From Sphingobacterium chungjuense (lineage in GTDB: Bacteria; Bacteroidota; Bacteroidia; Sphingobacteriales; Sphingobacteriaceae), in assembly GCF_011316935.1 (NCBI RefSeq), contig NZ_WLYS01000001.1, positions 248,001-312,000 on the forward strand: 64,000 nucleotides of DNA, in the 5' to 3' direction. Made by a program: the position numbers and the translations under genes. Positions 18,500 to 21,371 of this stretch are shown in pieces. Numbering within the stretch: the first letter of the stretch is position 1; each line of letters opens with the position of its first letter. The notes under the pieces were generated by a model. That model was not told the origin of the DNA and searched no databases. It saw only the letters and a program-made list of their open reading frames with translations.

Positions 18500-19594
18500 C
18501 TATTCCACAATCAGATGTATTCCTGCCAATTCTGCCTTGTACCGAATCTTTTCTATCAGGCCATGATAACCCCAATTACGCAACAAAAATACATCTTCGT
18601 GCGCCACGACATTTTTAGGGGTTTGATTCACTAATATCAAAGTGCCTGCCTGATGGCGGATGCAAAAATCAATTAATTGCCGACTATAAAGGTGCAACTT
18701 ACTTTGCACGTAATTCTTTTCTTTCTGCCTGAATGTTTCCAAACGATGTAGTTTCTTCTTCTTGCCATGCCCACCACTATTATAGCTACAAGAAGCTTCA
18801 ATTCGATGCCGAGCGGCTTGTATTGCTAATCGTCGGTATAGAAACTCTTCTTTATTACCGATGCGATATAGATCGTGACCGACCTGTACAACAACTGGAT
18901 GTTCAAGAGACAAAGATGCTTCCGCTACCACACCTTGCTTCAACTCCATTTCGTCAATTGGTTTTTCAAAACATAGAAATAGGAATAGACCAGATTTTTC
19001 GCGCTTGATGGCACATTGCACAATTTTAATATCACCTGCGATTATCTGCTGGATCAATTTCTTCTTGCGACCACTGTCTCGCCCTAAGAATGTCCGAAAA
19101 GGTAATTTGAACAACACGAATTTAAAATCCCGATCTTCCACTAGACCTATCCATTTCAGCAATTTTCCAGAAAATGGTATAGGCATATTCTTCTGATAAT
19201 TTCGAAGCGAATGCTCTCCTTTAGCATACGCTTGACGATCAGTAAAAAAGGCTTTAACGATGGATGTATTCAAATTGGTGATAATATTTGAATGTACCTT
19301 ACCTTTAAAATATTTGGATAGTAGCTGATATGTGGTATTTCTGCGCGATGTGGTCAATATTCCTGCTGCATTCTGCTTACCATCCAACAATTTAACTTTT
19401 GCTTCTTCTTTCAAGTAAAGCAAATCTTTGATGTTCTCCTGCATAAATTGATGAGAAATCGCAATATTGGAGGCTTTGAAAATCAGATCGTGCCATTGAT
19501 GAAGTCGATTTTGATAGACACGTCGCTTTTCTGGATCTGATTCATCCAATAAGATTTGGATCTTGCGTGTAAGTATGACTTTTTTCTTCGCCAT
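18500..19594 (-). CDS. nuclease-dead, C-terminally truncated Cas12f/TnpB-like protein
   Basis: A basic 364-residue protein with Cas12f/TnpB layout: a helical N-terminal region, the SLRNYQKNMPIPF motif near residue 129 that resembles a conserved Cas12f motif, then a RuvC-like C-terminal half. At the RuvC-I position (about 221-235) the usual GIDLG pattern is replaced by VVAEASLSL, with no aligned Asp. At RuvC-II (about 317-324) the usual EDL reads LVNQ. The protein ends after GIHLIVE, just where TnpB and Cas12f continue into the CxxC zinc ribbon and RuvC-III Asp, and no such sequence follows the stop. It should bind an RNA but not cut DNA. Its ATG lies 1 nt after the sigma-factor stop, implying translational coupling. 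A degenerate IS605 orfB is the main alternative, but no tnpA or transposon ends were seen. Confidence 0.75.
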   Translation of the reverse strand: MAKKKVILTRKIQILLDESDPEKRRVYQNRLHQWHDLIFKASNIAISHQFMQENIKDLLYLKEEAKVKLLDGKQNAAGILTTSRRNTTYQLLSKYFKGKVHSNIITNLNTSIVKAFFTDRQAYAKGEHSLRNYQKNMPIPFSGKLLKWIGLVEDRDFKFVLFKLPFRTFLGRDSGRKKKLIQQIIAGDIKIVQCAIKREKSGLFLFLCFEKPIDEMELKQGVVAEASLSLEHPVVVQVGHDLYRIGNKEEFLYRRLAIQAARHRIEASCSYNSGGHGKKKKLHRLETFRQKEKNYVQSKLHLYSRQLIDFCIRHQAGTLILVNQTPKNVVAHEDVFLLRNWGYHGLIEKIRYKAELAGIHLIVE

Positions 19595-19595
19595 T

Positions 19596-20414
19596 TTACC
19601 ACATAGTTAAAAGCTCACTTCGAGACGCGGATGATTTGGTTTTGCGATAAGCACGGACAAACAAACTATTCGCTACAGCTAGATCAACATCCAAGGCGGT
19701 GGCAATTTCGTTAAAAGTCTGCTGTTGATTACATCTCAAGTACAAAACTAATGCTTCATCAGAATTCAAATTTGCTACTTGATCTTGCGTACTATCTCTC
19801 TCAAATTCTTGTAATTTTTCGGTATTCTCAAATACTGATCGCATTTGCGCAATTGCCTGTTCTGCTTTATATTTCACTTCTTGCGACGACCGCCCGCCGA
19901 GGTAATCTGCAATACGATCGTAATTAAAGCTATATTCTAAGCATAGGCGAATAAGCATTTGTTGATCTTGTCGCAAATTAGGCATGAGCGCATTAATTTT
20001 TCTAATATAAATTCGATCTTCTGGATCTTGCCTACCGCTCACTCCTTCAATTTCCGAATCTAACGACATATACAAACAATTACCTTCAGTATGGAAGGGC
20101 TGTAATGGCACAAAATTACGCCTGAACTGCTCTGATGGACTGCCATAGTATTCTCTCGTAGCCCGTTTAATTTCGGCTTCTAAAAAACTTTGCATGTTGT
20201 CCACACTATCAATATGTTTGCGAAAAAGCCACAAACGAAAAAAAGCCTCCTGAACAAAAGTTTTGCTAACATCTACATCCCCAGTAGCTAACCGTGCTTT
20301 GGCAAATAGATCACTATAGTAGTTTTTGTAAAAATAATCCAATGCTCTCTCCTCACCATTATTCAGAAAGCTTACATATTGTTGCGAAGAATACATCGTT
20401 TGCTTTATGCTCAT
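19596..20414 (-). CDS. ECF-type RNA polymerase sigma factor with an extra C-terminal sigma-4-like region
   Basis: A 272-residue protein. Residues 20-80 match sigma region 2, including the segment around FVQEAFFRLWLFRK. Residues 136-195 resemble sigma region 4 (MPNLRQDQQMLIRL, then RIADYLGGRSSQEVKYK). A second region-4-like helix-turn-helix follows at about 215-262 (LNSDEALVLYLR, FNEIATALDVD). Ordinary ECF factors are about 180-200 residues with one region 4. No anti-sigma gene lies next to it. It shares an operon with the Cas12f-like gene, so the plausible job is to bring RNA polymerase to sites chosen by that protein's guide RNA. This role is inferred from context. A one-nucleotide gap separates the genes. 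Confidence 0.8.
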   Translation of the reverse strand: MSIKQTMYSSQQYVSFLNNGEERALDYFYKNYYSDLFAKARLATGDVDVSKTFVQEAFFRLWLFRKHIDSVDNMQSFLEAEIKRATREYYGSPSEQFRRNFVPLQPFHTEGNCLYMSLDSEIEGVSGRQDPEDRIYIRKINALMPNLRQDQQMLIRLCLEYSFNYDRIADYLGGRSSQEVKYKAEQAIAQMRSVFENTEKLQEFERDSTQDQVANLNSDEALVLYLRCNQQQTFNEIATALDVDLAVANSLFVRAYRKTKSSASRSELLTMW

Positions 20415-20793
20415 AATATTACCATTAACTTATTTGATTTCGCGCTTGGCCGCGCCGTTCGAAATTTGAGCTTTCAAAAAAAGTCAATACATTACTCATT
20501 AGAATCCGAATTACAAAATCTGCGGACGCTGTTGTGTACAATATCCAATCAATCAATGAGAGACCATTAATATTCTTGAAAATTGCTCAGTGAGCGAATA
20601 AAATCCTCACCCTGCGGCATCACAAGAAACCTCCACTTTTGTTTAAGTGTATCTAAGTTATTTTTTTTGGTTCTATCCCGGAACGCTTATACGATATAAA
20701 CAGGAAATTTTACGGCTTAATATTCACCGAACCATTCATGAAATCCTACGAATTCTATTCAAATTTCTTTAAAATTAATTATTATTCTTTATT
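20415..20793 (-). ncRNA. long structured leader upstream of the sigma gene, candidate guide RNA locus
   Basis: About 380 nt without a credible gene lies between a consensus minus-strand promoter and the sigma start. It can form several stems: GAACCA/TGGTTC arms at 20729-20734 and 20668-20673 enclosing a TTATA/TATAA hairpin, CACTT/AAGTG (20634-20649), GTGAG/CTCAC (20590-20610), TTTGA/TCAAA (20465-20478), and a GC-rich hairpin with TTTCG/CGAAA base (20438-20464). A run of seven T on the minus strand lies at 20476-20482. A Cas12f-type RNA has a folded scaffold and a 3' guide, which would fit, but no scaffold homology, guide boundary or target was established. It could instead be a regulatory 5' UTR. 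Confidence 0.4.
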
Positions 20794-20799
20794 TGAAAT

Positions 20800-20830
20800 C
20801 AAATGTAAACAAAATATTCGACTAAGCAAA
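20800..20830 (-). promoter_or_regulatory. consensus promoter for the leader RNA/sigma/Cas12f-like operon
   Basis: On the minus strand, TTTG (20827-20830), a 19-nt spacer, then TACATTTG (20800-20807) match both elements and the spacing of the Bacteroidota promoter. Transcription should begin near 20793. Confidence 0.7.
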
Positions 20831-20846
20831 TAATTATAGATTTTGT

Positions 20847-20882
20847 TTATTCCCATTTTGCGAGAATATTTATTCATTTTGC
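20847..20882 (+). repeat. direct repeat in the XRE promoter region, candidate operator
   Basis: TTATTCCCATTTTGC (20847-20861) and TTATTCATTTTGC (20870-20882) share a TTATTC half and an ATTTTGC half. The ATTTTGC cores are 21 bp apart, about two helical turns. They lie between the two divergent transcription units and overlap the probable XRE promoter (TCATTTTG, 20874-20881), as expected for a regulator's own operator. Confidence 0.4.
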
Positions 20883-20885
20883 AAC

Positions 20886-21371
20886 GTGACTGAATCAAAC
20901 AAATTAATTTTAAGGAAACTCGGGGGTCTGCTCCGATCTCGTCGGGAATATTTATCCTATTCGCAACGGGATGTTGCCAGCATGACGGGGCTCACTATGA
21001 CCACAATCGCCGCGATGGAAAGAGGCTCAGGATCAACCATGCATAACTTTTTATTAGTATGTCGAGCATTAAATTTTCAGCCGCGTAAGTTTTTTTCTGA
21101 AGACATCGATCTTACCCCGTTATATAATATATCACCACAAGCCAAAAGTCGAATTGATCTACGTACTAAGCTTGATAGACTTGTCTCAGAATCAGATTTT
21201 TTCACGACACCAAGACGTGTTTCTGAAGTGTTGGAAGAACTCGATTATGACACGAGTGTGAGTAACAAATTCTCCGTATATCTTACAGCATATTGTAGAG
21301 AAGGTGAGTTAGAATATTTTAAAACAGGAAACGTAAAGCGTTATATTAAGAATAAACCACCTTCTAAATAA
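20886..21371 (+). CDS. XRE-family transcriptional regulator
   Basis: A 161-residue protein with an N-terminal HTH domain (about residues 7-70; SQRDVASMTGLTMTTIAAMERG is split across the recognition helix) and a C-terminal region (about 90-155) with a winged-helix-like pattern of unknown role. The only plausible start is GTG at 20886, since no ATG lies in frame upstream of the HTH before a stop. A near -7 box 5 nt before it suggests a leaderless mRNA. It is divergent from the sigma/Cas12f-like operon and probably regulates it or itself. Confidence 0.75.
   Translation: MTESNKLILRKLGGLLRSRREYLSYSQRDVASMTGLTMTTIAAMERGSGSTMHNFLLVCRALNFQPRKFFSEDIDLTPLYNISPQAKSRIDLRTKLDRLVSESDFFTTPRRVSEVLEELDYDTSVSNKFSVYLTAYCREGELEYFKTGNVKRYIKNKPPSK

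Follow-up and report, generated by a model that had tools for sequence, protein, structure and literature searches.

We analyzed a two-gene operon of Sphingobacterium chungjuense that encodes a Cas12f-like protein and an extracytoplasmic function (ECF)-like sigma factor. The operon lies on the minus strand of a 64,000-nucleotide (nt) stretch of DNA, in the following called the window, which corresponds to positions 248001-312000 of contig C10 in the 3.87-Mb genome (G000). Both open reading frames (ORFs) are intact. The sigma factor gene comes first, and a single base (19595) separates it from the gene for the Cas12f-like protein, in agreement with a preliminary description of this DNA that had placed the two genes one nucleotide apart on the same strand, behind one consensus promoter and a 380-nt leader. 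The leader length was likewise reproduced, amounting to ~380 nt when counted from the sequence TTTG-N19-TACATTTG, which we take to be a Bacteroidota-type promoter motif. Only in this form did the promoter stand: a scan for E. coli-type sigma-70 consensus promoters gave 4 hits versus 2.8 expected, which is chance level, and was rejected as evidence. The Bacteroidota-type promoter falls in a conserved block next to a divergently oriented gene for an XRE-type regulator and, as read from their alignment, is present in two close relatives as well. It would drive the guide RNA described below, the sigma factor and the Cas12f-like protein together. The gap between the operon and the XRE gene contains an AT-rich block, near-invariant across three species and carrying a repeated GCAAAATG(G)GAATAAA motif, which possibly serves as an operator. 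The features are compiled in Table 1.

Table 1. Features of the dCas12f-sigma locus (positions within the window; dCas12f, nuclease-dead Cas12f; HTH, helix-turn-helix; aa, amino acids)
Feature	Position	Strand	Basis
dCas12f gene, 364 aa; RuvC-I Asp replaced by Ser227, RuvC-II Glu by Val322; without zinc ribbon and RuvC-III	18500..19594	-	PDB, PADLOC and Foldseek matches, family alignments
ECF-like sigma factor gene, 272 aa	19596..20414	-	PDB, Foldseek and Pfam matches
Guide segment AGCGTCCGCAGATTTT, 3' end of the predicted guide RNA	20515..20530	-	Identity in 4/4 genomes; second exact copy in own genome
Scaffold of the predicted guide RNA, ending in ...TACACAAC; two stems and a hairpin resembling a fused repeat and anti-repeat	20531..20639	-	Covariance model R1, paired changes, folds
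Presumed Bacteroidota-type promoter, TTTG-N19-TACATTTG	20800..20830	-	Pattern match to a presumed motif; function putative
AT-rich intergenic block, possible XRE operator	20822..20889	.	Alignment with relatives; operator role putative
Divergently oriented gene for a 161-aa HTH regulator of the XRE type	20886..21371	+	Pfam HTH_31/HTH_3

A predicted nuclease-dead Cas12f and its sigma factor

In a sequence search, residues 3-363 of the Cas12f-like protein matched PDB entry 9n9c, 'Nuclease-deactivated Cas12f', with an E-value of 1.2e-101, whereas the matches to active Cas12f proteins were far weaker (best E 1.8e-33). PADLOC recognized a Cas12f (E 1e-49), and the NCBIfam guided_TnpB score of 46 bits stayed under the cut-off of 100. 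Structure prediction, which the preliminary description had named as a check, pointed in the same direction. The model (mean predicted local distance difference test, pLDDT, 79; predicted template modeling score, pTM, 0.61) found its best Foldseek matches in 9n9m (E 6e-36) and 9n9c (E 6e-35), which are dCas12f-guide RNA complexes with or without DNA.

Alignment with an active Cas12f (9nzo) confirmed that the RuvC-I and RuvC-II acids have been lost, as had been described: the Asp of GVDLG aligns to S227 in VAEASLS, and the Glu of QMERL to V322 in ILVNQ. The comparison across the family covered 40 dCas12f loci out of 43 rows, including the present one (L033); the three rows left out are partial and belong to G099 and G076. 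The resulting alignment has 42 rows, made up of the 40 loci, the query repeated, and one locus (L072) entered as two pieces. Column 227 contains S in 37 rows, A in 2, D in 1 and a gap in 2; column 322 contains V in 33, T in 5, I in 2, L in 1 and a gap in 1, and Glu never occurs. The sole locus with Asp at the RuvC-I position is L059 (G038:C31), and its RuvC-II Glu is replaced. Judged by its residues, the protein does not possess the catalytic RuvC site that goes with CRISPR-Cas12f (type V-F) immunity. Active Cas12f was rejected as an identity for the protein because the acids are gone in nearly the whole family.

The C-terminus, ...YKAELAGIHLIVE, lies ahead of the zinc ribbon and RuvC-III, both of which had correctly been described as absent. 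Nearly the same end point is seen in the relatives and in the solved dCas12f (365 aa). As far as the alignments tell, the absence is thus a family trait and neither a truncation nor damage confined to this locus, and the earlier view of a 'truncated effector' specific to this locus has to be given up. Public records of several dCas12f relatives read 'transposase' or 'IS605 OrfB', which hides the family. A relic of an IS605-type element was also rejected, since the acids are gone in nearly the whole family and the neighborhood is conserved. A decayed element with unrelated neighbors in relatives had been named as a possible refutation. It was not borne out, although transposon ends were not searched for: the sigma factor gene was found directly upstream of the dCas12f gene in 37 of the 40 loci.

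The sigma factor matched RpoE of an 'RNA-guided transcription complex' (PDB 9n9q_C) over residues 16-262 with an E-value of 2.7e-22. Domain matches comprised a Myb/HTH-like segment at 149-186 and region 4 at 210-258 (Pfam Sigma70_r4_2). The predicted model was of moderate confidence (pLDDT 73, pTM 0.36), and its best Foldseek match was again 9n9q_C (E 2e-10), with a template modeling (TM) score of only 0.30. Thus, sequence and fold matches of both proteins support the earlier identification of a dCas12f-sigma pair, and on these comparisons the pair belongs to the known dCas12f-sigma kind of RNA-guided transcription system. In three loci, L053 (G132:C14), L056 (G199:C2) and L057 (G112:C53), guide RNA, XRE and dCas12f occur without an adjacent sigma factor gene. 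Unlinked sigma homologues were found in G132 (33% identity, E 4e-41) and G199 (32%, E 7e-41); the sigma factors of G112 are distant only (E 1.5e-6 or worse).

In 31 of the 40 dCas12f loci, a divergent XRE-like gene is found upstream. Contrary to the earlier assumption, this partner is therefore not peculiar to the present locus. Fifteen of these matches have E-values below 1e-30; the others may represent different HTH proteins.

A predicted guide RNA gene in the leader

Alignment of the leader with two close relatives revealed two conserved non-coding blocks, one beside the XRE gene and the other resembling a guide RNA. In the latter we predict a Cas12f-type guide RNA gene at 20515-20639 (-), composed of a two-stem scaffold with a fused repeat/anti-repeat-like hairpin, the end ACACAAC and then the guide AGCGTCCGCAGATTTT. 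The core of the scaffold, resembling a trans-activating CRISPR RNA, spans 20572-20633 (-). At the level of sequence, this agrees with the earlier suggestion that the leader is a likely source of the guide RNA. The covariance model R1 scored 61.4 bits (E 3e-24) at this locus, which is part of its training set. When the segment was folded and compared with shuffled versions, the z-score was -2.3, and 4 of 200 shuffles were as good. The underlying alignment, A1, used 48 of 61 sequences; 4 nhmmer matches failing the pattern and some further copies were left out. In six of the 12 modeled pairs, both partners had changed with pairing retained in at least one sequence, and the outermost pair of the second stem was broken or gapped in 14 of the 48 sequences.

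The covariance model gave 83 matches. After removal of eight weak matches (E 2e-4 or worse), and since the match in the window is the same place as L033, 74 remained, 73 of them in the 40 loci. All 73 copies are on the dCas12f strand, solely upstream of the gene in 20 loci and solely downstream in the other 20. The scaffold was found at 41 of 41 dCas12f loci (the 40 fetched plus L032), of which 34 had supplied training sequences and 7 had not. Genus-wide, 54 of 93 genomes have a scaffold match. It was present in all 18 genus genomes with dCas12f and, weakly, in 1 of the 17 listed genus genomes without dCas12f. Because many of these loci trained the model, this co-occurrence is a matter of consistency and not a fully independent test. 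A weak match (E 1e-7) at G147:C1:703949, in a genome without a dCas12f match, is perhaps a leftover.

The genome of S. chungjuense contains exactly one guide RNA copy. No copy of the CRISPR repeat, searched with a consensus from relatives, was detected in the 15 kb of L033, and no phage match was found for the leader in the window. Among the 40 loci, 8 contain CRISPR-type arrays of at least three repeats with a period of ~66 nt, a consensus-based count in which diverged arrays may be missed. In these loci (L035, L036, L037, L046, L048, L049, L050 and L051) a repeat ending in GGTATATACAAC, or close to it, lies near the scaffold, and the effector is without catalytic acids. The spacers of the L046 array (genome G028) gave no phage match. 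A search for targets inside the fetched locus stretches returned 119 rows, which, as far as they were read, were repeats, scaffold copies and duplicated spacers, compared with 1 in the reversed control. In one locus, L072 (G190:C32), two stops interrupt the dCas12f gene, which has six guide RNA copies next to it; G190 encodes a second dCas12f without stops.

The guide recurs upstream of a TetR-like gene

The guide was defined before any search as the 16 bases that are conserved across three species. It is identical in all four genomes that bear it, including that of S. chungjuense, while the bases 3' of it differ. The genome of S. chungjuense contains only one second exact copy, at G000:C11:376938-376953 (-), where about 0.002 would be expected by chance (arithmetic). 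A TetR-like gene has its ATG 52 nt downstream of this site. The genome search for guide matches upstream of genes, proposed in the preliminary description, thus yielded one exact site. In the close relative Sphingobacterium corticibacter (G117), there is likewise one other exact copy of the guide, in the orthologous place. Across the four genomes, the distance between site and ATG is 51-53 nt. Counted from the start of the guide, the match extends over 16, 17, 15 and 14 nt in G000, G117, G223 and G239, respectively, with the mismatches inside the 16-mer confined to its 3' end. GTTA stands directly 5' of the match in all four target sites, and TTAAGCGTCCGCAG occurs exactly once without mismatch in each of the four guide-bearing genomes. 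With two mismatches allowed, the genome of S. chungjuense has 4 extra sites versus 2 for the reversed pattern, which is near chance. Genus-wide, up to one mismatch, 16 matches were obtained, namely 4 guides, 3 TetR sites and a further 9, compared with 7 for the reversed pattern; the fourth TetR site carries 2 mismatches.

In S. chungjuense, a sugar-metabolism operon ends ahead of the target site, and a terminator-like hairpin lies between its stop and the site. The families of this operon and the terminator scan were determined on S. corticibacter, in which a terminator lies just upstream of the site, and the arrangement is alike in all four genomes. No TAnnTTTG motif was found from -120 to +60 of the target site in S. 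chungjuense.

The TetR-like gene product has 198 aa in both S. chungjuense and S. corticibacter. A close copy is present in exactly 4 of the 93 genomes, the same four that bear the guide, where it is 100, 89, 66 and 65% identical to the protein of S. corticibacter; relatives with 31-34% identity are encoded in three further genomes. Compared with the S. chungjuense proteins, the sigma factors of the guide-bearing genomes are 61-72% and the dCas12f proteins 75-86% identical (86% in S. corticibacter, 75% over the first 194 residues in G239). In G223 and G239 too, which are the most distant of the four genomes, the sigma factor and dCas12f genes stand beside the guide.

Proposed mechanism and alternative explanations

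Our observations comprise the protein family, a structured scaffold that is conserved, and a match between guide and site that is kept in four genomes. From these we propose that the locus is a dCas12f-sigma system with a leader-encoded guide RNA, and that its complex likely binds the recurring site and starts transcription of the TetR-like gene. We assign this reading a probability of roughly 0.78. The transcript of the operon leader would be processed to the guide RNA, and dCas12f loaded with it would open the target site next to GTTA. The sigma factor would then bring RNA polymerase in place of a normal promoter, and the TetR-like gene would be switched on. The divergently encoded XRE protein may gate the operon. 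That a normal promoter is replaced is suggested because TAnnTTTG is lacking near the site in S. chungjuense and because a terminator lies just upstream.

The target site sits in the upstream region of the TetR-like gene, where dCas12f and its guide RNA might instead repress, blocking the promoter while the sigma factor acts elsewhere. Such blocking is the way of TldR, a TnpB-like, nuclease-dead RNA-guided protein adopted as a transcription regulator, which represses according to PMC13418256. Since 3 of the 40 loci have no adjacent sigma factor gene, a sigma-free mode is conceivable; however, two of these three encode a sigma homologue elsewhere. Moreover, the sigma factor gene stands directly upstream in all other loci, one base away in the present case, there is no Bacteroidota -7 motif near the site that could be blocked, and related proteins have been solved in an RNA-guided transcription complex. 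The position of the sigma factor gene, the lack of a TAnnTTTG motif near the site, the terminator immediately ahead of it and the solved complex are the reasons why we favor activation, and we consider repression unlikely. Short conserved DNA in two intergenic regions is also a common sign of ordinary transcription factor sites, so that the shared 16-mer might be an operator, e.g., of the XRE or the TetR-like protein, rather than a guide-target pair; the conserved sequence downstream of the target would suit this explanation. Yet in the operon the 16-mer directly follows the scaffold end ACAA(C/T), a position at which unrelated sequences stand in other genomes; its place and orientation agree among all four genomes, and the match fades solely at the 3' end within the 16-mer. 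We therefore regard a shared operator as quite improbable. Finally, the single guide RNA copy without an array, and the broken dCas12f of one relative (G190:C32), might indicate that the machinery of this strain is a decaying relic and no longer functional. The intact sigma factor and dCas12f ORFs speak against it, as does a guide that stayed identical in four genomes while the two proteins diverged to the identities given above, and we see hardly any likelihood of such a decay.

Several observations weigh against RNA-guided activation of the TetR-like gene. The four guide-bearing genomes form one clade, so that guide and gene do not co-occur in four independent events, and the DNA downstream of the target site is conserved too. 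The TetR assignment itself is weak (Pfam E 0.005, below the cut-off; best PDB E 0.036). In G239, the TetR-like gene (G239:C1:1561540-1562127) is interrupted by a TAG despite the conservation of guide and site, and no XRE gene was detected in the 1.5 kb upstream of the guide. At one mismatch, TTAAGCGTCCGCAG has four further sites, in G223 and G239, versus 1 in the reversed control. G219 has an exact 16-mer at an unrelated place, which chance would allow across 93 genomes (about 0.2 expected). All four sites have A immediately 5' of the match, whereas the published target motif of the dCas12f-sigma system is reportedly a minimal 5'-G; a guide register begun two bases later would give 5'-G, but the scaffold ends argue against that register. 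Searches with other guides produced no convincing target. The guide shared by G072 and G192 and that of G137:C3 have no second site at up to one mismatch. For the guide of the sigma-less loci in G132 and G199, we found imperfect sites only and no clear target (7 and 12 pattern matches at up to two mismatches, guides included, versus 4 and 2 for the reversed pattern). The array spacers of L046 match their own genome weakly (best 31 nt at 94%) and show no clear pattern.

Relation to known systems and implications

The guide RNA of active Cas12f consists of scaffold stems, an end ...CAAC and a 3' guide, and the general plan is the same here. The fold, too, is alike over most of the length of active CRISPR-Cas12f proteins (Al3Cas12f, 9nzo/9nzr; CnCas12f1, 8hr5; AsCas12f, 7wju/8j12). 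Unlike these, the present system has no catalytic acids, no zinc ribbon and no array at the locus. TldR works without a sigma factor; the protein described here, predicted to be a nuclease-dead RNA-guided transcription regulator as well, is closer to Cas12f than to TnpB, unlike TldR. The closest likeness is to the dCas12f-sigma(E) system (PDB 9n9c, 9n9m, 9n9o, 9n9q), to which both proteins match over nearly their full length, with the same dead RuvC-I motif AEASLS and the same C-terminal end. Four of the features by which we recognize such a system are found at this locus: a Cas12f homologue with a RuvC that is inactive by its residues, a genetically linked RpoE-type sigma factor as in 9n9q, a guide RNA encoded at the locus (here a predicted gene), and a guide that matches a site upstream of a gene. 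Points that may set this locus apart from the dCas12f-sigma(E) system are a predicted fused single guide RNA encoded in the leader, ahead of the sigma factor gene, a lone TetR-like gene as the predicted target, the divergent XRE gene, and the A of GTTA in the place of the reported G.

Our literature search, which did not cover the primary paper, reportedly by Hoffmann, Sternberg and colleagues (2025-26), turned up no study of dCas12f together with a sigma factor. Possibly novel are the pairing of guide and target, the placement of the fused guide RNA in the leader and the link to XRE, but given this scope of the search we make no claim of novelty.

While the machinery is known from solved structures, a natural guide together with a natural target makes its biology testable, and here one guide, one site and one gene can be named, conserved in four genomes. 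The loci surveyed form a series within one bacterial family, with CRISPR-type arrays at one end and a fused single guide RNA at the other. We tentatively suggest that S. chungjuense possesses a CRISPR-derived machine hard-wired to one gene, with a single guide that stays fixed in several species, a promoterless site with a GTTA-type motif, a TetR-like regulator dependent on dCas12f-sigma, and probable gating by the XRE protein. In relatives, the arrays might then represent address lists for switching genes on, in some cases with a distant sigma factor gene.

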